From Arthrobacter sp. B1I2 (lineage in GTDB: Bacteria > Actinomycetota > Actinomycetes > Actinomycetales > Micrococcaceae), in the NCBI RefSeq assembly GCF_030816485.1, contig NZ_JAUSYC010000001.1, forward strand, positions 620,001 through 684,000: a stretch of 64,000 nucleotides of DNA. The letters run 5' to 3'. Shown here one piece after another: positions 44,440 to 55,553 of this stretch. Numbering within the stretch: position 1 is the stretch's first letter; the number at the start of each line of letters is the position of its first letter. The notes beneath the pieces are model-generated. The model did no database searches. It had not been told where the DNA came from and saw only the letters and a program-made list of their open reading frames with translations. The position numbers and the translations under genes are program-made.

Positions 44440-45510
44440 ATGTCCCTCAGCGTTGAGGAAATGAACAAGCAGCTCCCGGCGGCCAACGCGCTGCCCGGAG
44501 AGGCAGTCCCGTACTACATGGCGTCGGGCGAGGGCGCGCGCTACGAAATCAACGGCCAACTGGTGACAGTCATTGCCCGCGCCGCCGACACCGGGGGCAT
44601 CTTCAGTGCTGCCTACATTTCCGGCGGCATGGGGGCAGAGTCCCCGTTTGTCAGCCACAGCATCGAACACAAGACCCTCTATGTCTTCGACGGCATCCTG
44701 CACGTCTGGCTCCCCGGCGAGAGCAGGATCCTCACGCCCGGCGACTCGGTGGTCATCCCGCCGAACACTCCGCACGCTTACCGGATGGCCAGCCACTACA
44801 CCCGCTTCCTGAACTGGATGACACCCGGCGGCGGCGAGAAGTACTACGAGCGGGTGGGAACGCCCATCGATTCCCACGTCCCGCCGGTCCGCCCCGGTCA
44901 CAAGGCAAGCCTCCAGGAGCAGGCCGAGGTGGGCGCCGGGTTTGGCATCACCTTCCCGGACGTTGAGCGCGTGGCGCCGTCGTTCAAGCACGACGCCGGC
45001 CTGCCGCCTGCGCAGAGCCCCTACTTCCTGAGTGCCGGGGAAGGCGACCGCATGGTCAGCTACCAGACTATGTTCACTTACCTGTCCCGCCCGGCCAACA
45101 CGGGGTCGAACTACTTCGCCGTGCACACCAAGGGCGCCAAAACCCCTTACATCCCGCTGCACTTCCACTCGGAGCACACCGAAAATTTCCTCTGCACCGA
45201 GGGCCGCATGTGGCTGTACGCCAACGGCCGCGAGATGCTCCTGACCAAGGGTGACTTTGTGCACGCGCCCGCAGGAACCATCCACTCCTTCGCGCTTGAT
45301 GCGCACAACACCCAGATGGTGGGCTTCCTGACGCCGTCGGTCTTCAACGGGTTCTTCGAGTACTTCAACAAGCCCACCGAGGACTACATGTACACCGAGG
45401 GCGGGGAGCCGTACATGGACATGGAAGGCTTCGGCCGCGCCCAGGCCGAGATGGACCTGACCGTCGTGGGACCGCCCCCGCAGCGCCGTGCCGCACTGGA
45501 CATCTCCTAG
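44440..45510 (+). CDS. Quercetin 2,3-dioxygenase-type bicupin
   Basis: 356 residues with two cupin domains, like the metal-dependent quercetinase of Bacillus (337 residues). The second carries HFHSEHTENFLCTEG (His-His-Glu metal ligands) and a later His in GTIHSFALD. The first has SHSIEHKTLYVFDG and PPNTPHAYRM. It would cleave the flavonol C-ring with release of CO. AAGGAAACATG gives the start. It is convergent with a set of aromatic-type genes, and ends at a strong terminator. Confidence 0.87.
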   Translation: MSLSVEEMNKQLPAANALPGEAVPYYMASGEGARYEINGQLVTVIARAADTGGIFSAAYISGGMGAESPFVSHSIEHKTLYVFDGILHVWLPGESRILTPGDSVVIPPNTPHAYRMASHYTRFLNWMTPGGGEKYYERVGTPIDSHVPPVRPGHKASLQEQAEVGAGFGITFPDVERVAPSFKHDAGLPPAQSPYFLSAGEGDRMVSYQTMFTYLSRPANTGSNYFAVHTKGAKTPYIPLHFHSEHTENFLCTEGRMWLYANGREMLLTKGDFVHAPAGTIHSFALDAHNTQMVGFLTPSVFNGFFEYFNKPTEDYMYTEGGEPYMDMEGFGRAQAEMDLTVVGPPPQRRAALDIS

Positions 45511-45528
45511 CTCTTAGGCCCAGGCAAG

Positions 45529-45568
45529 CAAATGGCCCGGACTTCCGAAAGGAAGTCCGGGCCATTTG
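45529..45568. terminator. Bidirectional terminator with GAAA tetraloop
   Basis: A perfect 18-bp stem, arm CAAATGGCCCGGACTTCC (45529-45546 with 45551-45568), and loop GAAA, then TTTG. It serves both the cupin gene and the convergent DUF3500 gene. Confidence 0.92.
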
Positions 45569-45598
45569 TTTGTAGCGGTCCAGTCGCCAGCGTCGAGC

Positions 45599-46840
45599 TT
45601 AGCTGCCGGTGAGCGCCTGTTTGACCAGTTCGCGGCCGTAGTCGTTGCCGTTGGGGGTGCGCACCACGGTGTGCATGTGGAACGGGGCAGGTTCATCGTT
45701 GCTGAGGAACACCCCGGTGTGGTGGTCCAGCTCGAGCACCACCACAGGACTCTGCAGCCGGAAATAGAACGCTTCTGCCCCCTCCCAACCGCCGATCCAG
45801 CTGAAATAGGATTCCCCATAGTGCTCCCGGATTTCCCGACGGCGGGCTGCGCGCGGTCCGTCGGGAAGGTAGGCGATGAAGTCGTCCACCACGGCGTCGA
45901 GCAACTTCCGCGCGTCAGCCGGCATGTCGGCAACCGGGATGCCCTCATAGGGGATCACCCGGTTGTCCTGAAAGCAGCCGCCCAGGTGCCGCTCATCGCC
46001 GGGGTGGAGCCGGCCTTCGGGCATGGCGGGATCCACCATCGATTCATACACAACAGCGCGGGTCCGCAACTCTGCCGGCAGCGCACCCATCAGTTCCCGG
46101 GCCAGCGCAATGCGCTCCTTGAACACCTTGACGCCCTGGTGCGGGCCGGCGTCGATCATGTCCGGTTCCGCGCCCATGAACACCGGCGAGACGACCAGTT
46201 GCGTCCCCGCCACCAGGCAGTTCAGCGCCGCGTGGTGGCCGAACAGCTGCCACCCCCACGGTTCGGTTTCGGACGGCTCCCCGTACAGGGCGAAGTTATA
46301 GCTGTACTCGTTCATGAGCAGCGGCAGCTCCACCAGGTCGCCCAGGAAACCGTTGATGCGCATCAGGTTCCGCACCAGCTCAAACCCCTGGGCGCTCAGG
46401 CTTGCCTCCACCACCCCCAGCACGGCGTCGCGGACGGCAGGATCCAGCTCGTCCAGGCGGAGCCCGGTGTCGTGCTGCATGAACTCGGGGTTGGCCCAGC
46501 TCTGCCATTCGGGCGCGTCCACGGCGTAGCTCAGCTTGCGGGCCTGGTCAGCGCGCACGGTGCCCAGCAGCTTGTCGGCGGCAGCCACCATCTCCGCGGT
46601 GGGCGCCTCTTCGCCCGGACGTGCCGGGGTGAGCGGATACAGCCCTTGGCGGCGGACGCCGTCGCTGGTGATTCCGATGAAGGGCTGCGGGTAGAGCTTC
46701 TGCCAGCCTTCGATCATGGGCCCGGCAAACGAGTCGGTCTTGGCCGCTTCTGCGTACTCGCGGGCGTTCAGGCCCCGGATGTCCGCCACCCGAGGGTGGC
46801 CAGGGGCAAACAGGTAATCACGGAATGACGGCGTCGACAC
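45599..46840 (-). CDS. DUF3500 protein
   Basis: 413 residues from GTG 46840, which has AGGAG 5 bases upstream and overlaps the end of the monooxygenase gene by 23 bases; the longer open frame further upstream is antisense-like noise. DUF3500 has no established activity. Near its end the sequence has LELDHHTGVFL and then PFHMHTVVRTPNGNDYG, a His cluster that could bind a metal (inference). Earlier regions include NEYSYNFALYGEP and PWGWQLFGHH. It is the last gene of a minus-strand set with an FAD monooxygenase, an FAH hydrolase and an esterase, suggesting a catabolic role. Confidence 0.85.
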   Translation of the reverse strand: MSTPSFRDYLFAPGHPRVADIRGLNAREYAEAAKTDSFAGPMIEGWQKLYPQPFIGITSDGVRRQGLYPLTPARPGEEAPTAEMVAAADKLLGTVRADQARKLSYAVDAPEWQSWANPEFMQHDTGLRLDELDPAVRDAVLGVVEASLSAQGFELVRNLMRINGFLGDLVELPLLMNEYSYNFALYGEPSETEPWGWQLFGHHAALNCLVAGTQLVVSPVFMGAEPDMIDAGPHQGVKVFKERIALARELMGALPAELRTRAVVYESMVDPAMPEGRLHPGDERHLGGCFQDNRVIPYEGIPVADMPADARKLLDAVVDDFIAYLPDGPRAARRREIREHYGESYFSWIGGWEGAEAFYFRLQSPVVVLELDHHTGVFLSNDEPAPFHMHTVVRTPNGNDYGRELVKQALTGS

Positions 46841-48590
46841 GGGTGCTCCTGGTGTTGTCAAGGGAAGCTGCTTGTTCGGGTAATGCGGTTTCGACGAGCG
46901 GGTCGGACGCCCACCCGGCTGCGACCGAGAGAGCCGCTGCGGCGGCTTCGGCGGAATTGCCGCGCCAGGCCACGTGCTGGTCGGGCCGGACCAGCACGGC
47001 CTCGGCGCCCCACAGCACGGAAAGCGGGGTTCCTTCCCCGGAAGATCCGACGGCGGCAACGGCCACCGGAATGCTCTGCCGGGCAGCGGCCGCCAGCACC
47101 GGTTCGAAAAATGTTGCGGCCGGCACCCCACCCAGCCTGCCGGCGTCGGCCAGCAGCGTGAAGCCGGTTCCCACGTGGCCGTAGAGGGATGTGCCATCCG
47201 GCAGCCAGGCGTGCGGCAGCAGGGCGCCCGGGCGGGCGGAGGGGACGTAGTGGATGGGGTCCTCTGCCGGTGCGGGCAGGCCATCGGGCACCACCAGCGG
47301 CGAGTCCCCGTAGGCGTAGCCGAGAACAAGGCCCAGGGAGTCGAACTCGCTCTGCTTCACGGCGAGCGCCGCCTCCGCCCTTTCCCGGGCAGCCTCGCCG
47401 GCAGGCCCGGTAGCCGCCAGCTCCGGATCAGCGAAGTGGTAGGCCAGGGCCTTGCCGTTTTCGGCGGCGTCGCGGATGGTGCGGGCGGCCACCGGTCGGC
47501 GTTCCTGCCCGTAGCTGTCGAGCAGCCCGGGTCCGGCCCAGCCCTTGATGGTGGCTGCGAGTTTCCACGCCAGGTTTGCGGCGTCGCCGATGCAGGTGTT
47601 GAAGCCGTGGCCGCCCCAGGGCGGATTGAGATGTGCGGCGTCGCCCACCAGGAAGATGTCGCCGCGGCTGTACTCAGGGGCCAGGAGCATGCGGGCGGTC
47701 CAGGGGTCCGTGGCCAGCACCTCGATGTCCACGCCGGCACCCACCAGTGAACGGACCATGGCAGCGGCGTCCCCGGCGCTGACGGCGACGGCGGGGTCCA
47801 CGCCCTGGACGATGGCCCACCAGGTGCCGGCCAGGTCCATGGGCCCAACCATGCCCGAGGTCTCCGATCCCACCACCCAGTACTGGACGGCGGGGTCCAG
47901 CGTGATCGCCGAGGCCAGCGAATCCGAGCGGAACAGGATGCTGATGTTGGACAGCGCCGCGGACCCGCCCTCCAGCCGCAGTCCCAGGCTCCGGCGCACG
48001 GCGGAGGACGCGCCGTCGGCACCGATGACAAAGTCCGCGCGGACGGTTCGTTCCGTGCCCCCGGGATTGGTTGCGACGACGGCGTATGGCGGCGTGGCAG
48101 CGTCACCTTCAGCATTGCTGACCCCAGTTACAGTCCAGCCGGCCAGGAAGGTGACCAGGGGGTTGTCCGCGACGGCGGCGCGGAGCACCTCTTCGAGGAC
48201 GGGCTGCGGGACCTGCTGGCCGCACTCGGGCTGTGGTCCGTAGCGGCCGGGAACCAGCTGGAAGGCGTTGCGGAACCGGCGCAGCTCGTGCGAGGCAGGA
48301 CCGGTGAGCCCGGTGCAGAAGATGACGTCCTGCGCGTAGTCCACCGGCAGCGGCGACGCGTCCCGGAGCAGGTCCGCGAGCCCCAGCCGGCGCAGGTGGG
48401 TCATGGTGCGGGCGTTGGTGGTTTTGGCCCGCGGCCGGGTGTGGTCCACGGCGGTGCGGGGTTCGATGACGGTGCTGGGGATGCCCCGCGCTGCCAGGTC
48501 CAATGCCAGGAACAGTCCGCTGGGCCCGCCGCCGGCAATCAGGACCTGTACTTCCCCCGGAATATCCTCGGCGTTATGGAGAGCGTTCAT
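46818..48590 (-). CDS. FAD-dependent aromatic monooxygenase (PheA/MhpA-like)
   Basis: 590 residues. FAD-binding GGGPSGLFLALDLAARGI at about 20-37, the DG motif VIGADGASSAVRRSLG and the second FAD motif FLVGDAAHLNPPWGGHGFNT are all present, with a thioredoxin-like C-terminal domain (about 440-590) as in phenol hydroxylases. It hydroxylates a phenolic ring with NAD(P)H and O2. Its start touches the stop of the FAH gene (48590 is shared), and its stop overlaps the DUF3500 start, indicating a tightly coupled operon. The actual substrate is unknown. Confidence 0.9.
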   Translation of the reverse strand: MNALHNAEDIPGEVQVLIAGGGPSGLFLALDLAARGIPSTVIEPRTAVDHTRPRAKTTNARTMTHLRRLGLADLLRDASPLPVDYAQDVIFCTGLTGPASHELRRFRNAFQLVPGRYGPQPECGQQVPQPVLEEVLRAAVADNPLVTFLAGWTVTGVSNAEGDAATPPYAVVATNPGGTERTVRADFVIGADGASSAVRRSLGLRLEGGSAALSNISILFRSDSLASAITLDPAVQYWVVGSETSGMVGPMDLAGTWWAIVQGVDPAVAVSAGDAAAMVRSLVGAGVDIEVLATDPWTARMLLAPEYSRGDIFLVGDAAHLNPPWGGHGFNTCIGDAANLAWKLAATIKGWAGPGLLDSYGQERRPVAARTIRDAAENGKALAYHFADPELAATGPAGEAARERAEAALAVKQSEFDSLGLVLGYAYGDSPLVVPDGLPAPAEDPIHYVPSARPGALLPHAWLPDGTSLYGHVGTGFTLLADAGRLGGVPAATFFEPVLAAAARQSIPVAVAAVGSSGEGTPLSVLWGAEAVLVRPDQHVAWRGNSAEAAAAALSVAAGWASDPLVETALPEQAASLDNTRSTRVDAVIP

Positions 48591-49474
48591 CAGGCACGGC
48601 TCCGGAGGGAAGCATCGCCCACGGGGGTGGTCAGGGTGCCGAGCTTTTCAATGTCCACTTGCACGGTGTCACCGGGCTGCAGCAGCCACTGTGGGGTGCG
48701 GGCGTAGCCCACGCCTTCCGGAGTGCCGGTGGCAATAACGTCCCCGGGGTGGAGGGTGAAGGTTTCACTGATGAGGGAAATGATGGCCGGGACGGAGAAG
48801 ATCATGTCCCGGGTGTTCCCGTTCTGGGCCTCAACGCCGTTAACCAGGGTGCGGACCTGGAGGCCGTCCCGGAGGTCACCCACTTCATCGCGGCTGACCA
48901 GGGGGCCAAGTGGACCGCTGAAGTCGCCGTTCTTGCCCAGGGTCCACTGCGACGTGAGCTTCTGCGCCTTGCGGGAGGTGATGTCGTTGAAGGTGGAGTA
49001 GCCAAAGACGGACGCTGCTGCGGTTGCCTCGTCTGCGGATTCGACCCGGCGGCCGATGTAGGCGGCCACCTCGCCTTCCCAGTCCAGCCCGGCTTCGCCC
49101 GCGGGGACCGGCACCGGGACATTGCCCACGGACAGGGACGCGGTCCACCGGCCAAAGAGGGTGGGGTACGGCGGCAGTTCCTGGTCCTTGTAGCTGCCCT
49201 CGGCGGCATGCGCCTTGTAGTTAAGGCCCACGCAGATGACCCGTGCGGAGGCGGGGACGAGCGGCACCTCGGTGACGCTGCCGCGCTCCAGCCAGGTCCC
49301 GGCGTCGGACGTTCCGGCTGTGGTGCCGGCGCCGGCAACCAGGGAGGCGGCCTTGTCCTGCCAGCCCTCGGCGTCCGCCCAGAAGTCCGTGACGGTGGCG
49401 AGCGGGAGGACGCGGGAACCGGCAAGGGCTGCCGCCCAGGATTCGCCGTGGTGGTTGATGCCAATGAACTGCAT
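48590..49474 (-). CDS. Fumarylacetoacetate hydrolase family protein
   Basis: 294 residues. ARVICVGLNYKAHAAE begins the FAH fold; metal ligands Glu are in DWEGEVAAYIG and an Asp in GYSTFNDITSR; the C-terminal PGDVIATGTPEGVGYARTP is typical. These enzymes cleave or hydrate acylpyruvates or tautomerise products of aromatic ring cleavage. ATG 49474 with GAAAGG nearby matches the family; the upstream extension is not conserved. It shares one base with the monooxygenase start. Confidence 0.92.
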   Translation of the reverse strand: MQFIGINHHGESWAAALAGSRVLPLATVTDFWADAEGWQDKAASLVAGAGTTAGTSDAGTWLERGSVTEVPLVPASARVICVGLNYKAHAAEGSYKDQELPPYPTLFGRWTASLSVGNVPVPVPAGEAGLDWEGEVAAYIGRRVESADEATAAASVFGYSTFNDITSRKAQKLTSQWTLGKNGDFSGPLGPLVSRDEVGDLRDGLQVRTLVNGVEAQNGNTRDMIFSVPAIISLISETFTLHPGDVIATGTPEGVGYARTPQWLLQPGDTVQVDIEKLGTLTTPVGDASLRSRA

Positions 49475-49530
49475 GGAGGGCCTTTCAGGTCTGTTCCGGG
49501 CGCGCGTGGCGCCCCGGGGGAATGCGGAAA

Positions 49531-50451
49531 TCAGTGCTGGTTCGCGTGGCGGCGGAAGAAATCGATGGTGGCCGCGGTTGCCTGTGCGGCGGCTTGGCTG
49601 CCGCCGTCCGGGGTGGACCACATGTGGTCGGCGCCCTGGAGCAGGAGGAGTTCGACGGCGTTGCCCGCGCCTTCCAGCGCGTCGGCGAGGCTGGCGGACT
49701 GGGCCGCGGGGACGAAGCGGTCAGCGGTGCCATGGATGAGGAGGAAGGGCGGCGCATCCGGGTGCACGTACGTGAGGGGACTCGCTGCCCTGGCTTTCCC
49801 CGGGGCATCGGCTGGCTGCGCCCCGATCAGGAGGGCTTCACGGGAACCGGGGTCATCGGCGCGCGCGACGGCGTCGGGCCGGGCTTGCTGGCCCATCCGT
49901 TCCAGGTCCGTGGGCGGGTACCAGGCCGCGACGGCGGCAACGGTATCAGCAACGTCAACGGCACCGGCAACAGCATCGTGGGCGGCATCGGTGCCGGGCT
50001 CGGCGAAGGCTGTGGACCCCGGGGTCAGGCCCAGGAGGCAGGCGAGGTGCCCGCCGGCCGAATCGCCCCAGGCGTAGATCCGGTCCGGGTCGATCCCGTA
50101 GTCGGCGGCGTGGCCGCGGAGCCAGCGGACTGCTGCCTTGGCATCAAGCAGCTGGGCCGGGAAGGTGGCGGCGGTGCTGAGCCGGTAGTCCGCGGAGGCC
50201 ACCACGAAGCCGGCGTCCACCAGCTGCTCGATGGGACTGAGGCCGAAACCGTCGACAGTCGGTCCCAGCGAGGACCGCTCCCCCGTCCGCCAGCCTCCGC
50301 CGTGGAAATGGATCACGGCGGGACGGCCCTGCCGGGTGCCCCCGGCGGCGGGCAGGTGGGATTCAGCCGGGAGGTAGAGGTCCAACAGCAGCGGCTCCGC
50401 GTTCTGTGGCCTGGCGAACTCGATCCCCCGGAGGATCCGCAGTGCCGTCAT
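49531..50451 (-). CDS. Alpha/beta hydrolase (HSL-type esterase)
   Basis: 306 residues from ATG 50451. HFHGGGW forms the oxyanion hole, GDSAGGH carries the nucleophile Ser, and PFLLIHGTADRFVP with a late GADHMW give Asp and His of the triad. GGAG lies 6 bases before ATG 50451; ATGs at 50463 and 50523 are alternatives. It lies 56 bp upstream of the FAH gene and probably starts the operon. An esterase acting on an aromatic ester or depside would fit the set. Confidence 0.88.
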   Translation of the reverse strand: MTALRILRGIEFARPQNAEPLLLDLYLPAESHLPAAGGTRQGRPAVIHFHGGGWRTGERSSLGPTVDGFGLSPIEQLVDAGFVVASADYRLSTAATFPAQLLDAKAAVRWLRGHAADYGIDPDRIYAWGDSAGGHLACLLGLTPGSTAFAEPGTDAAHDAVAGAVDVADTVAAVAAWYPPTDLERMGQQARPDAVARADDPGSREALLIGAQPADAPGKARAASPLTYVHPDAPPFLLIHGTADRFVPAAQSASLADALEGAGNAVELLLLQGADHMWSTPDGGSQAAAQATAATIDFFRRHANQH

Positions 50452-50637
50452 CGTTGACTCCATGTGTGCTGCGCCGTTTCTGTCCTGTAGCTGGAGCGGG
50501 TCCATACCTTGGTCCGCGTTCATGGACTCAACTCTGGGCCATCGGCGGCACTGCACGCGCTGCCGGTTTCACTGAATGAAACTAGTTCGGCGGGCTGTGC
50601 CCGGCGTGCGGATGCCGGGAAGACGCAGTGCGGAAGA

Positions 50638-51120
50638 TCAGCTGACCAGGACCTGGGTGGCAGACTCCTTCAGCTTGCCGTTGGCCCACTTCATCTGGCG
50701 GATCGTTTGCGGATGGCACCGCTCCGCAAGGGCCAGCAGGTCGCGGTCCTTCATCCCCTGGGCAGCCTGGGCCAGCAGCTCCCAGTCGGCCGATACGCCA
50801 CAGGCCTTCAGGTAGAGCTCCCGGAGGTCCCGCAGCAGAAGCAGTCCGGTTTCGGGGCGCCGGCCCACCATCTCGCTGCCCTTCTCCCGGAGCGTTTCCA
50901 TGAGCCCCGTTTCGCTGCGCGGCTCCGGATCCAGGTCCTGGCCGTAGTTTTTGGCGATGTCCGCGATGTCCCGGACGTGCTGCTGGGACCAGCGGGCCAG
51001 GTCCCGGGCCAGGTGGTAGATCTCGTGGTCAACCTTGTGCCGCTCGGAGATGACCAGCAGGTGGTGCGCCAGATCGTTTTCGGACCGGTGCATTTCCTCG
51101 AGTACAAGCCCGAACTTCAT
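50638..51120 (-). CDS. Hypothetical helical protein, partner of the molybdopterin oxidoreductase
   Basis: 160 residues, rich in Leu, Glu, Arg and His, predicted almost wholly helical, without signal peptide or membrane segment. The first 60 residues have several His and Glu residues (EEMHRSENDLAHHLL, HKVDHEIYHLARDLARW) arranged like a helical-bundle metal or haem site, which is speculative. Its start overlaps the stop of the molybdopterin enzyme by 4 bases, so it is translationally coupled and likely a subunit or maturation factor. I do not recognise a named family. Confidence 0.75.
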   Translation of the reverse strand: MKFGLVLEEMHRSENDLAHHLLVISERHKVDHEIYHLARDLARWSQQHVRDIADIAKNYGQDLDPEPRSETGLMETLREKGSEMVGRRPETGLLLLRDLRELYLKACGVSADWELLAQAAQGMKDRDLLALAERCHPQTIRQMKWANGKLKESATQVLVS

Positions 51121-53582
51121 CGTGCCCCTCCTTGTGTGCCGGTGGCTTCATCCGCCAGGGCAGAGGCGATCCCCTTGGTCCTGGCCCCTTCCGGAAAGTC
51201 GCCGGCGGGAGCCGACGCAGTGTTGGTGGGTGCCGGGGACGGCCCCTCACCGCCGGCAACCCGGGTAATGCGCGCCGCCGCCGTCTTGAAAATGGGCTGC
51301 TTGGACGCGGCATCCCAGTCGGTGATGGTCAGCTCGTTCGCTGCCCTGCCGGCCCCGTCCGGCTGGTGCCCGCCGTCGGTGTCCCAGTAGCCGTAGTGGA
51401 AGGGCAGGAAGAGCACCCCGTTCCGGATTCCGCTGATGCGGACCCGCGCCCGGACGGAACCACGGGGAGTCTCCACCTCCGCAAGGTCCCCTTCGGCAAT
51501 CCCGTACGCGCCGGCGTCGTCCGCTGACGACTCCACCCAGACGTCGGGTGCGGCCGCCTGCAGCTCCGGCGCACGCCCGGTCTTGGTGCGGGTGTGGAAC
51601 TGGTAGAGCGTGCGGCCGGTGATGAGCTGCAGCGGAAAATCCTGGCTGGGCAGCTCGTGCGGCGGGACGTACTCCGCGGCCTTGATGATGGCCCTGCCCT
51701 CCGGATTCAGCGCCTTGTATTCGGATGGCTCCACGGGCGCGCCGGTGATCAGGTCCCGGCCATACGTCTCGCAGTACTCCGGGTGGGCCCAGAACTTCCC
51801 GTCAGCGTAAATCCGTTCGGTGCCGTCCGGGTTCTCGTCGTTGCACGGCCACTGGATGCCGGAGCCGCCGCGCAGCTTGCTGTAGGTAATGCCGGTGTAG
51901 TCGCACGGACGGCCCCGCGTGCATTCCTTCCACGCCTCAAAGGCGGATTCGGGATCGTGCCACTTGATGAGCGGCTGCCCGTCCTTGTCCTGCAGGCCCA
52001 TCCGGTGGGCGTAGTCGATGAAGATCTCCAGGTCGGGTTTGGCCTCGCCGGGCGGCTCCACCGCTTTCTCTGAGAGGTGGACCGTCCGGTCCGCATTGGT
52101 GAAGGTGCCCGTCTTTTCGCCCCACGTGGCAGCCGGAAGGACGACGTCGGCCAGCTGGGCGGTCTCGGACAGGAAGATGTCCTGCACCACCAGGAACAGC
52201 CGGTCCTGTTCCAGGATGCTGCGGATGCGCGCCAGCTCCGGCAGTGAAACGGCCGGATTGGTGCCACTGACCCAGAGCATCCGGATGGAGCCGTCCTCCA
52301 CGTACCGCATCATCTGCATGACGTGCGTGGGCGGCGAGTAGTGCGGAATGGACATGGGGTCGATGTTCCATACCCGGGCGAGGTCCTGGATGTGGGCGTC
52401 GTTGGACCAGTTGCGGAAGGCGGCAAGGTCGCCGTCGGCACCGCATTCGCGGGTGTTCTCCGCGGTGGGCTGGCCGTTCATCTGCAGGATGCCGCAGCCC
52501 GGCTTGCCCAGCATGCCGCGGATGATGTTGATGTTGTTCACCTGCACCGCGGCGGCCGTGGCCTGGTTGGACTGGTAGAAACCCTGCAGCACCGTGGACA
52601 GCAGCCGCTCGGCGTGGCCGATGATGCTTGCCGCCTCGGAGATCTGCTCCGCCGGGACCCCGCAAATCTCCGCTGCCAGGGCGGGCGGGTAGTTCTTGAC
52701 TTCTTTTTCGAGTTCTGAAAAACCCACGGTGTGGGCCTCGACGTAGTCCTGGTCCACCCAGCCGTTGCCGATGATTTCGTGCAGGATGGCGTTCATTAGG
52801 GCCACGTTGGTGCCGGGCCGTGGGGCCAGGTGCACGGTCGCGGCCCTGGCCACGGGGGTGAGGCGGGGGTCCACGCAGATGACCTTGGGCGGGTTGGGTC
52901 CGGCCAGCCGGTCCAGCATCCTGGTCCAGAGGACGGTCTGGGTTTCGGCCACGTTGTGCCCGTACAGGGCAATGACGTCCGCGTGGTCCACGTCCGTGTA
53001 GGAGCCGGGCTGGCCGTCGCAGCCGAACGATTCCTTCAGCGCCTCCCCCGCCGTCGCCGTGCAGAGCCGGGTGTTTCCGTCCACGTGGTTGGTGCCGATG
53101 CCGCCGTGGGCAAGGGTTCCCAGGGTGTAGTACTCCTCGGCGAAGAGCTGGCCGGTGGTGTAGAAGCCGATGGCGCTGGGCCCCTGCTCCGCCAGCAGTG
53201 CCTTGGACCGGTCCACCACGCGCTGCATGGCGGTGTCCCAGTCGGTTTCCACCAGCTTCCCGCCATCGCGGATCAGGGGTTTGGTGAGCCGGTCCGGCGA
53301 CGCGTTCGCCTGCCAGCCGTACAGGTCTTTCGGTCCCAGCCGGCCGTGGTTGACCCGGTCCATGGCCCGTCCGCGCACACCGACGATCCGGTTGTCCTTG
53401 ACCGCGATGTCCATGGCGTCGCCGTTCGAGTGCAGCAGCGACGCCGTCTGGACCCACCTGTCCACGTCCTCCGGTGCAACCCCTTCAGCCAGATGGGTGT
53501 CAACCCTGACCGGCCAGTCACCGCCACTGGCGTACGGCGTCCGTGTCCCCCATGGTTCAGCTATTCGGTCAATCCGAGCCAT
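51117..53582 (-). CDS. Molybdopterin oxidoreductase (nitrate reductase/formate dehydrogenase superfamily) lacking the N-terminal Fe-S ligands
   Basis: 821 residues with the full bis-MGD fold. NTRLCTATA places the Mo-ligand Cys at 174, as in assimilatory nitrate reductases, and GKPGCGILQMNGQPTAENTRECG, WVSGTNPAVSLPELARI, AATWGEKTGTFTNADRTVH and the C-terminal FHTRTKTGRAPEL and PFHYGYWDTDGG are family-typical. Where relatives have C-x2-C-x3-C the sequence is SLLHSNGD (residues 48-55), and the fourth cysteine in GRLCPKG is Gly83. So no [4Fe-4S] cluster can form in the usual way. No Tat signal; cytoplasmic. It is coupled to the 160-residue protein downstream. Substrate unknown. Confidence 0.9.
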   Translation of the reverse strand: MARIDRIAEPWGTRTPYASGGDWPVRVDTHLAEGVAPEDVDRWVQTASLLHSNGDAMDIAVKDNRIVGVRGRAMDRVNHGRLGPKDLYGWQANASPDRLTKPLIRDGGKLVETDWDTAMQRVVDRSKALLAEQGPSAIGFYTTGQLFAEEYYTLGTLAHGGIGTNHVDGNTRLCTATAGEALKESFGCDGQPGSYTDVDHADVIALYGHNVAETQTVLWTRMLDRLAGPNPPKVICVDPRLTPVARAATVHLAPRPGTNVALMNAILHEIIGNGWVDQDYVEAHTVGFSELEKEVKNYPPALAAEICGVPAEQISEAASIIGHAERLLSTVLQGFYQSNQATAAAVQVNNINIIRGMLGKPGCGILQMNGQPTAENTRECGADGDLAAFRNWSNDAHIQDLARVWNIDPMSIPHYSPPTHVMQMMRYVEDGSIRMLWVSGTNPAVSLPELARIRSILEQDRLFLVVQDIFLSETAQLADVVLPAATWGEKTGTFTNADRTVHLSEKAVEPPGEAKPDLEIFIDYAHRMGLQDKDGQPLIKWHDPESAFEAWKECTRGRPCDYTGITYSKLRGGSGIQWPCNDENPDGTERIYADGKFWAHPEYCETYGRDLITGAPVEPSEYKALNPEGRAIIKAAEYVPPHELPSQDFPLQLITGRTLYQFHTRTKTGRAPELQAAAPDVWVESSADDAGAYGIAEGDLAEVETPRGSVRARVRISGIRNGVLFLPFHYGYWDTDGGHQPDGAGRAANELTITDWDAASKQPIFKTAAARITRVAGGEGPSPAPTNTASAPAGDFPEGARTKGIASALADEATGTQGGAR

Positions 53583-54677: not shown

Positions 54678-54767
54678 CCAACTATGCTGGCACTGGCTGG
54701 TATGGTTCCGCCAATTGATGACCGTGAACGGTAACAACGGCGGAACCACACTGGCCCGTTGGAGTTA

Positions 54768-55125
54768 TCAATGGAGCTGCTTGCCGAGCTCCATCTTCCG
54801 GATCTTGCCGCTGGCCGTGCGCGGCATATCCGCCACCACCACCAGCGACTTGGGGGATCTTGTAGCGGGCAAGCCGGCCGTCGAGGAAGCTGCGCAGCTG
54901 CTCCTCCGTCAGGGATTCGCCTTCCCGGAGGGTCACGATCGCCTGGGGAACCTCGCCCCAGTTGTCGTCGCTGACGCCGATGACCGCCACGCTGCTGACG
55001 GCACCGTGCTCCGCGATAACGGCTTCCACCTCGGCCGGGTAGATGTTTTCCCCGCCGGAGATGATCATGTCCTTGAGCCGGTCCGAAACGAACAGGAAGC
55101 CTTCCTGGTCCCGGTAGCCCATGTC
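54768..55125 (-). pseudogene. Acyl-CoA synthetase (AMP-forming), C-terminal remnant
   Basis: Only the last 120 or so residues of an ANL enzyme remain: DMGYRDQEGFLFVSDRLKDMIISGGENIYPAEVEAVI then YKIP. The frame then breaks at a run of five C (54852-54856) and resumes as SLVVVADMPRTASGKIRKMELGKQLH, which contains the A10 catalytic lysine. Everything 5' of the GD-MGY motif (about 400 residues) is missing, and the sequence switches directly into a MarR-like gene on the other strand. Two independent lesions make it a clear pseudogene. Confidence 0.85.
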
Positions 55126-55133
55126 GCGCCGCC

Positions 55134-55553
55134 AGAATCGGCAGTGATGTCGGCCTGCTGCTGGCCAAGCTGCATGCCGCGGGTTCGATCCTAAACAACA
55201 AGGCGCTGGCGGACTTCGGCCTGCGCGAGCGCTCCTTCTCCGTCCTGACGCTGGCATGCAGCGGGCTGGAGCCGACGCAGCGGGAACTGGCGGATTTCCT
55301 CAGCCTGGACCCCAGCCAGGTCGTGACGCTGGTGGATGACCTGGAGCGGCGCGGACTGGTGGAGCGGGCGCAGGGGAAACAGGACCGGCGCGCCAAGATC
55401 ATCGTTTCCACCGCCGAGGGACGGAAGATGCACACCAAGGCACGCGCGGCCATGGACGAGGCGGAGCTAAAGCAACTGGCCGGACTTTCCGTCGAGGAGT
55501 CGCACGAGTTGAAGCGGCTGCTCCGCAAAGCGCTGTGGGGCGCGGCGGAGTAG
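55134..55553 (+). pseudogene. MarR-family regulator lacking its start
   Basis: The frame reads RIGSDVGLLLAKLHAAGSILNNKALADFGLRERSFSVLTLAC, then the winged helix QRELADFLSLDPSQVVTLVDDLERRGLVER and a normal C-terminus, a nearly complete MarR protein. No ATG, GTG or TTG exists in frame before GTG 55323, deep in the DNA-binding helix. The missing first residues coincide with the junction to the acyl-CoA synthetase remnant at about 55126-55133. It was probably the divergent regulator of that gene before a deletion removed both 5' ends. A short product from GTG 55323 (76 residues) would be non-functional. Confidence 0.75.

Follow-up and report, generated by a model that had tools for sequence, protein, structure and literature searches.

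The window analysed here is a 64,000-nucleotide stretch of Arthrobacter sp. B1I2 (contig NZ_JAUSYC010000001.1 of assembly GCF_030816485.1, positions 620,001-684,000; window positions are used throughout), and the subject of this report is a pair of overlapping genes within it. The first encodes an 821-aa oxidoreductase of the molybdenum bis(pyranopterin guanine dinucleotide) (Mo-bisPGD) type in which no Cys ligand of the N-terminal iron-sulfur cluster is left, and the second a helical protein of 160 aa. Sequence comparison places the enzyme in a large actinobacterial clade, here called Cys-less, that lost the cluster independently within the Cys-ligated branch of the superfamily, retained its Mo-cofactor site and carries a strongly constrained set of new residues in the former cluster pocket, and it identifies the small protein as an old integral subunit. 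Electrons are considered to enter this branch of Mo enzymes through the N-terminal cluster, which in NarG is also taken as a maturation checkpoint. As the clade is large and under selection, lost its cluster in two steps and has intact relatives with three of the cysteines at about 58-65% identity to the window protein, both roles become directly testable.

The evidence for the pocket comes from an alignment of 220 Cys-less proteins with 133 three-Cys relatives, namely 13 split or partnerless proteins and 120 fused to the small domain. Mo proteins of more than 700 residues were taken from the loci, and near-copies remain among the 220; the Mo proteins of L034 and L146 do not differ. As originally predicted from the single sequence, the family motif C-x2-C-x3-C is replaced by Ser48, His51 and Asp55, with Gly83 at the position of the fourth ligand and Cys174 as Mo ligand. 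His51, Asp55 and Asp86, the last of which had not been noticed before, were each found in 220/220 Cys-less rows and remained invariant in all 133 clusters formed at 90% identity, across which 173 of the 821 columns are invariant. Cys at positions 48, 51 or 55 occurred in 0/220 of these rows, and any C-x2-C within the first 250 residues in a single one. The three-Cys relatives have C, C and C at these positions and Gly at 86 in 133/133 cases, and 51, 55 and 86 were the cleanest of 16 positions that split the two groups by the thresholds used. Lys85, Cys174, Thr175 and Arg378 do not vary in either group, and Thr177 is likewise invariant among the Cys-less rows. In a protein search, HSNGD at 51-55 was present in 120/120 homologues with 76-88% identity (the best 120 of 7895 found), and a motif of the H-S-x-G-D type in 80/80 named Cys-less loci (the best 80 of 571). 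Comparison with 10 orthologues gave ratios of non-synonymous to synonymous substitutions (dN/dS) of 0.057-0.086 (Mo gene) and 0.053-0.120 (small gene). The invariance of His51, Asp55 and Asp86 together with these low ratios indicates that the pocket with its new residues is under strong constraint, reflecting selection and not decay, and the kept Mo ligand and cofactor domains indicate that the Mo-cofactor site is retained. Conservation of the complete Ser/His/Asp/Gly set as a clade signature, which had been proposed as a check, was borne out for His51 and Asp55 only, as position 48 varies (S 146, T 55, A 19) and Gly83 is not specific to the clade. Gly was found at position 83 in 133/133 three-Cys relatives (Asp in 38/220 Cys-less rows); hence, on the alignment, Gly83 is older than the Cys-less clade, which lost three ligands and not the four assumed at first.

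Two maximum-likelihood trees of 38 and 20 rows, rooted on four-Cys rows, agree with this order of events. The Cys-less rows formed one clade in both (support 100/98 and 99/94 respectively), and the three-Cys rows were paraphyletic in both; the position of one three-Cys row, L051, disagreed between the trees. The family of fused and split three-Cys and Cys-less proteins, with Gly or Asp at 83 and the small domain or gene, was united at one node (100/98). More distant relatives examined, at 38-40% identity, keep all four Cys, and a Staphylococcus saprophyticus plasmid relative of 41% identity (L176, 5404-8379, forward strand) combines C-x2-C-x3-C with Gly at the fourth position, its gene being preceded by that of a 181-aa protein without Pfam match. 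Most likely, as read from the trees and the alignment, the fourth ligand of a four-Cys ancestor was the first to go, by a change from Cys to Gly, and one branch in the Actinomycetota then lost the other three, once. All 80 named Cys-less loci are actinobacterial by name, ranging from Rubrobacter to Streptomyces, Mycobacterium and Arthrobacter, and plasmids of Georgenia, Streptomyces and Rhodococcus carry the two-gene unit as well. Among 396 genomes sampled evenly across the phylum, the Cys-less motif was seen in 25 and the three-Cys type in 2; one more genome (G408) has a member in pieces, in which the motif was not seen. Many actinobacterial proteins are called 'nitrate reductase' without the cluster that the name implies. 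Among 37 genomes of the genus (G000-G036), 11 carry the Cys-less type, 8 a second type of 62-65% identity that keeps C-x2-C-x3-C with Gly at the fourth ligand, and none carries both (P 0.04, kinship uncorrected), a mutual exclusion that is suggestive only.

The 821-aa protein itself belongs, by its domains and motifs, to the Cys-ligated Nas/Nap/Fdh branch of Mo-bisPGD oxidoreductases. The Pfam domains Molybdopterin and Molydop_binding were both above cut-off (Table 1), and the Fe4S4 domain PF04879 reached 13.8 bits, under its cut-off of 22.7. Among solved structures the best sequence matches were the FdhF subunit of hydrogen-dependent CO2 reductase and NapA. Matches to 27 NCBIfam models were obtained, and for each of the 25 viewed the protein stayed under the cut-off (402.7 against 1100 bits for NasC; 464.7 against 666.25 for Fdh-alpha), models of formate dehydrogenase and of Nas/Nap nitrate reductase being the nearest. 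Like NasC/NasA/NarB and NapA it has both Mo-cofactor domains and the Cys Mo ligand (Cys174 in 220/220 rows), and like the Nas enzymes it has no export signal by eye; it differs in having 0/4 ligands of their four-Cys N-terminal [4Fe-4S] cluster and in its additional small helical subunit. A His following the Mo-ligand Cys is a criterion for formate dehydrogenase, and this identity was rejected as Thr175 stands there in 220/220 rows. The three-Cys relatives share with the Cys-less enzyme the Mo-ligand loop, the Gly at the fourth ligand and the small domain, and they differ by their C-x2-C-x3-C motif, by having the small domain either fused or split, and by a neighbouring HPP gene in some loci (see below); some are named 'ferredoxin-nitrate reductase' by the Joint Genome Institute. 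Arsenite oxidase AioA, which has a [3Fe-4S] cluster bound by three Cys with a non-Cys fourth position and a Rieske partner, resembles these relatives in its ligand set and is distant in sequence. TorA, BisC and PgtL are not known to carry the N-terminal cluster. According to the accessible part of a superfamily survey (PMC10100899), DorA functions without this cluster and forms a Ser-ligated group with those three, a figure marks cluster loss at the family level, and AioA differs from the enzymes studied here by having no amino-acid Mo ligand. Membership in the Ser-ligated DorA/TorA group is contradicted by Cys174 in 220/220 rows, and since the Cys-less clade is nested among cluster-bearing relatives, its loss of the cluster is independent of that group. 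MSMEG_4206/NasN of M. smegmatis was rejected as a characterised relative, being a protein of 1351 aa with additional domains in the available text of PMC7816997. In the literature search, outside which most subscription journals lay, no description of the Cys-less clade or of the fused domain was found.

The 160-residue gene downstream, whose 5' end overlaps the 3' end of the Mo gene by 4 bases as first noted, was expected to be a constant companion, and it was indeed present in 105/105 Cys-less loci searched. Several of these represent the same genome twice (L149/L041, L156/L042, L157/L043, L158/L049), and the Cys-less loci L050 and L052-L055, with contig ends or broken frames, lie outside the count. 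Mostly the two genes overlap by 4 bases or lie a few bases apart (36 bases in L090), and larger apparent gaps occur where the Mo frame is broken. The small gene also adjoins the Mo gene in 8/8 three-Cys loci of the genus and stands next to three-Cys Mo genes on Curtobacterium, Deinococcus and Hymenobacter plasmids. In one three-Cys member (L148, 7386-9746, reverse strand) the partner gene was not detected; this Mo gene lies directly downstream, on the same strand, of gltB- and gltD-like genes (glutamate synthase, named by eye). A 942-aa protein of Halomonas sp. KO116 combines the Mo protein with the small protein as its C-terminal part, and a search with this fusion gave 120/120 listed hits of 937-1006 aa at 96-100% query coverage. 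Named ones among these matches come from Proteobacteria, Planctomycetes, Nitrospirae, a Pyrinomonadaceae and Methanobacterium, and C-x2-C-x3-C with Gly at the fourth position was found in 120/120 (117 by pattern and 3 by eye; 120 in the alignment). As it occurs beside and fused to cluster-bearing enzymes, the sequences argue that the partner is an old integral subunit, which neither arrived with the loss of the cluster nor substitutes for it, and a late replacement of the cluster by the partner was rejected. This brings to light a small helical domain that is widespread among nitrate-reductase-like enzymes and occurs as a fusion in several bacterial phyla. No Pfam family was above cut-off for the small protein in the copies scanned. 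Its fold is probably a four-helix, ferritin-like one, with 6-14% identity to proteins of the bacterioferritin/ferritin/Dps fold, from which it differs in that ferroxidase ligands are apparently mostly absent. Coupling analysis of 236 pairs of Mo protein and partner (Meff, the effective number, 195) ranked nine pairs within the Mo protein above the first pair between the proteins (375-124, followed by 516-138 and 411-124), a signal too weak to place the interface.

Table 1. Features of the gene pair and of the former cluster pocket (window positions)
Feature	Positions	Strand	Basis
Mo-bisPGD oxidoreductase, Cys-less, 821 aa	51117..53582	-	PF00384 211 bits, PF01568 92 bits, PF04879 sub-threshold; 220 aligned homologues
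Small partner subunit, 160 aa, predicted four-helix, probably ferritin-like bundle	50638..51120	-	C-terminal domain of fused homologues in other phyla
Codon 48, Ser, former ligand 1 (S/T/A in the clade)	53439..53441	-	alignment
Codon 51, His, former ligand 2, 220/220	53430..53432	-	alignment
Codon 55, Asp, former ligand 3, 220/220	53418..53420	-	alignment
Codon 83, Gly, fourth-ligand position; Gly likewise in 133/133 three-Cys relatives	53334..53336	-	alignment
Codons 85-86: Lys85 invariant in both groups; Asp86 clade-specific (Gly in relatives)	53325..53330	-	alignment
Codon 174, Cys, Mo ligand, invariant	53061..53063	-	alignment

For the chemistry of the ancestor, the genes next to the pair gave the best indication. 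A gene for an HPP transmembrane protein (PF04982) lies 3' of the partner in 5/13 three-Cys loci with fetched flanks (L170, L171, L172, L174 and L175 of L148, L159-L163, L170-L175 and L178), of which L172 is truncated, L174 fused and L175 broken in its Mo and partner frames; L015, L017 and L019, three-Cys loci of the genus with 1.5-kb flanks, stood outside this search. One locus has the HPP gene after a formate/nitrite transporter, and such a transporter is found at the Deinococcus aetherius locus. HPP likewise lies 3' of the partner in 5/7 loci of one early Cys-less branch (L040 and L045-L048, not L041 and L044). The accessible part of PMC7438415, citing Maeda 2014, connects the HPP family with nitrite transport in cyanobacteria and chloroplasts, and a list of GlnR sites in PMC3662644 contains an HPP gene and two molybdopterin oxidoreductases, without linking them in the portion available. 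HPP beside three-Cys loci and in an early Cys-less branch makes nitrate/nitrite chemistry, by a nitrate-type reductase, the most likely assignment and our best guess for the ancestor. Since the Cys-less enzyme shares its Mo-ligand loop and Arg378 with the three-Cys relatives, it probably still reduces nitrate or another small oxyanion of that kind.

Taken together, we favour, with about an even chance of being right, a joint reading in which the pocket has been rebuilt without a cluster, the small subunit is structural or serves docking, and a soluble donor feeds the pterin/Mo end for oxyanion reduction. By sequence, the enzyme had the small helical domain before the cluster was lost, and with the replacement of the three ligands His51, Asp55 and Asp86 became fixed around the invariant Lys85. 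This His-Asp-Asp/Lys arrangement would fill the old pocket, the loop staying folded and the molybdenum cofactor (Moco) entering without a cluster. A donor of the flavin, F420 or ferredoxin type may then hand electrons directly to the pterin/Mo end, which would parallel electron delivery in DorA-type enzymes. Several observations weigh against this reading. The arrangement in the pocket was read from sequence and not from coordinates, and E. coli NarG, once the Cys ligands of its cluster are replaced, receives neither cluster nor Moco (available part of PMC10609526). HPP was found in the flanks of 0/80 named Cys-less loci, and a YaaH-like membrane protein directly follows the partner in 17/80 of them and in L043 of the earliest Cys-less branch (1 of 2 such proteins checked was above the Pfam cut-off), so that the substrate may have changed. 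No electron-donor family recurred near the pair among the 25 commonest neighbour families (109 further families lay outside), and no biochemistry for any clade member was found in the literature. Furthermore, the host genome encodes a NasC-like enzyme (L165; C-x2-C-x3-C and the fourth Cys; 680.9 bits, under the cut-off of 1100), and plain nitrate assimilation may thus not need the Cys-less enzyme.

Other explanations have to be considered. A mononuclear metal site formed by His51, Asp55 and Asp86 in the old pocket near Lys85 and the pterin, feeding or gating electrons to Mo, is conceivable though unlikely. Non-redox or substrate-to-substrate chemistry, for which acetylene hydratase and pyrogallol transhydroxylase are precedents, would need no electron route; it would suit the missing cluster, the lack of a recurrent donor gene and the different adjacent transporter in many derived members, but the Mo-ligand loop and Arg378 are those of the three-Cys relatives and the early Cys-less branch has the HPP arrangement of cluster-bearing ones, and we give it little credence. 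The original prediction had suggested that the helical partner might carry the electrons in place of the cluster, binding a metal or haem, which now seems improbable. Besides the age of the partner and its fusion to cluster-bearing enzymes, of the ferritin di-iron ligands (E/ExxH/E/ExxH), mapped to E. coli bacterioferritin by aligned ranges, only Glu14 and His48 match and those of the C- and D-helices are apparently gone; among 120 fused domains 38% have His48, ferritin-type metal ligands are unconserved across the family, and partners from early Cys-less branches (L040, L041, L043) resemble three-Cys partners, with Glu at 136. More doubtful still is a non-catalytic scaffold that no longer binds Moco, in the manner of ActB, Nqo3 or FhcB: superfamily members without cofactor exist (PMC10100899, accessible part) and NarG variants without cluster ligands have no Moco (PMC10609526, likewise), but Cys174 and Arg378 are invariant in 220/220 rows and the Pfam cofactor domains score far above cut-off. 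Sequencing error or a decaying copy, to which broken frames in a few relatives elsewhere (e.g. L053, L055, L122; none for the window) might point, has a negligible probability and was rejected as the cause of the motif loss, since the change is common to 220/220 homologues, dN/dS is far below 1, and close homologues with cysteines, which had been looked for, were not found, the nearest cluster-keeping group being the separate one within the genus.

The wider surroundings of the pair vary. When 136 neighbours from 36 loci were assigned to Pfam families, no family had more than 8 members, and NarJ/TorD chaperones were absent from 50 aligned rows, which is insufficient for their exclusion. Flanks of the 80 named loci contained DUF326 (four-helix, copper-binding) in 14 and a zinc alcohol dehydrogenase in 14. 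In L077-L087 and other Geodermatophilaceae and Streptomyces loci, the pair is located near DUF421, DUF2254, a Na+/H+ antiporter, DUF326 and a zinc alcohol dehydrogenase, and these regions may represent a stress island. The BASS transporter next door had been proposed to carry the substrate; with BASS just upstream in 4/80 named loci, all from Pseudarthrobacter or Arthrobacter, this proposal is weak, and BASS was rejected as a general substrate transporter. Adjoining it in the window is a fragment of an AMP-binding acyl-CoA ligase (54682-55257, reverse strand; C-terminal domain PF13193, 54.6 bits), which resembles a decayed gene, no long intact frame being seen around it. At 44440-50556 a cluster reminiscent of aromatic catabolism encodes a cupin protein, a flavin adenine dinucleotide (FAD) aromatic hydroxylase, an FAA hydrolase and a BD-FAE-type alpha/beta hydrolase, and parts of this cluster were found again near the Mo gene in a few close relatives.

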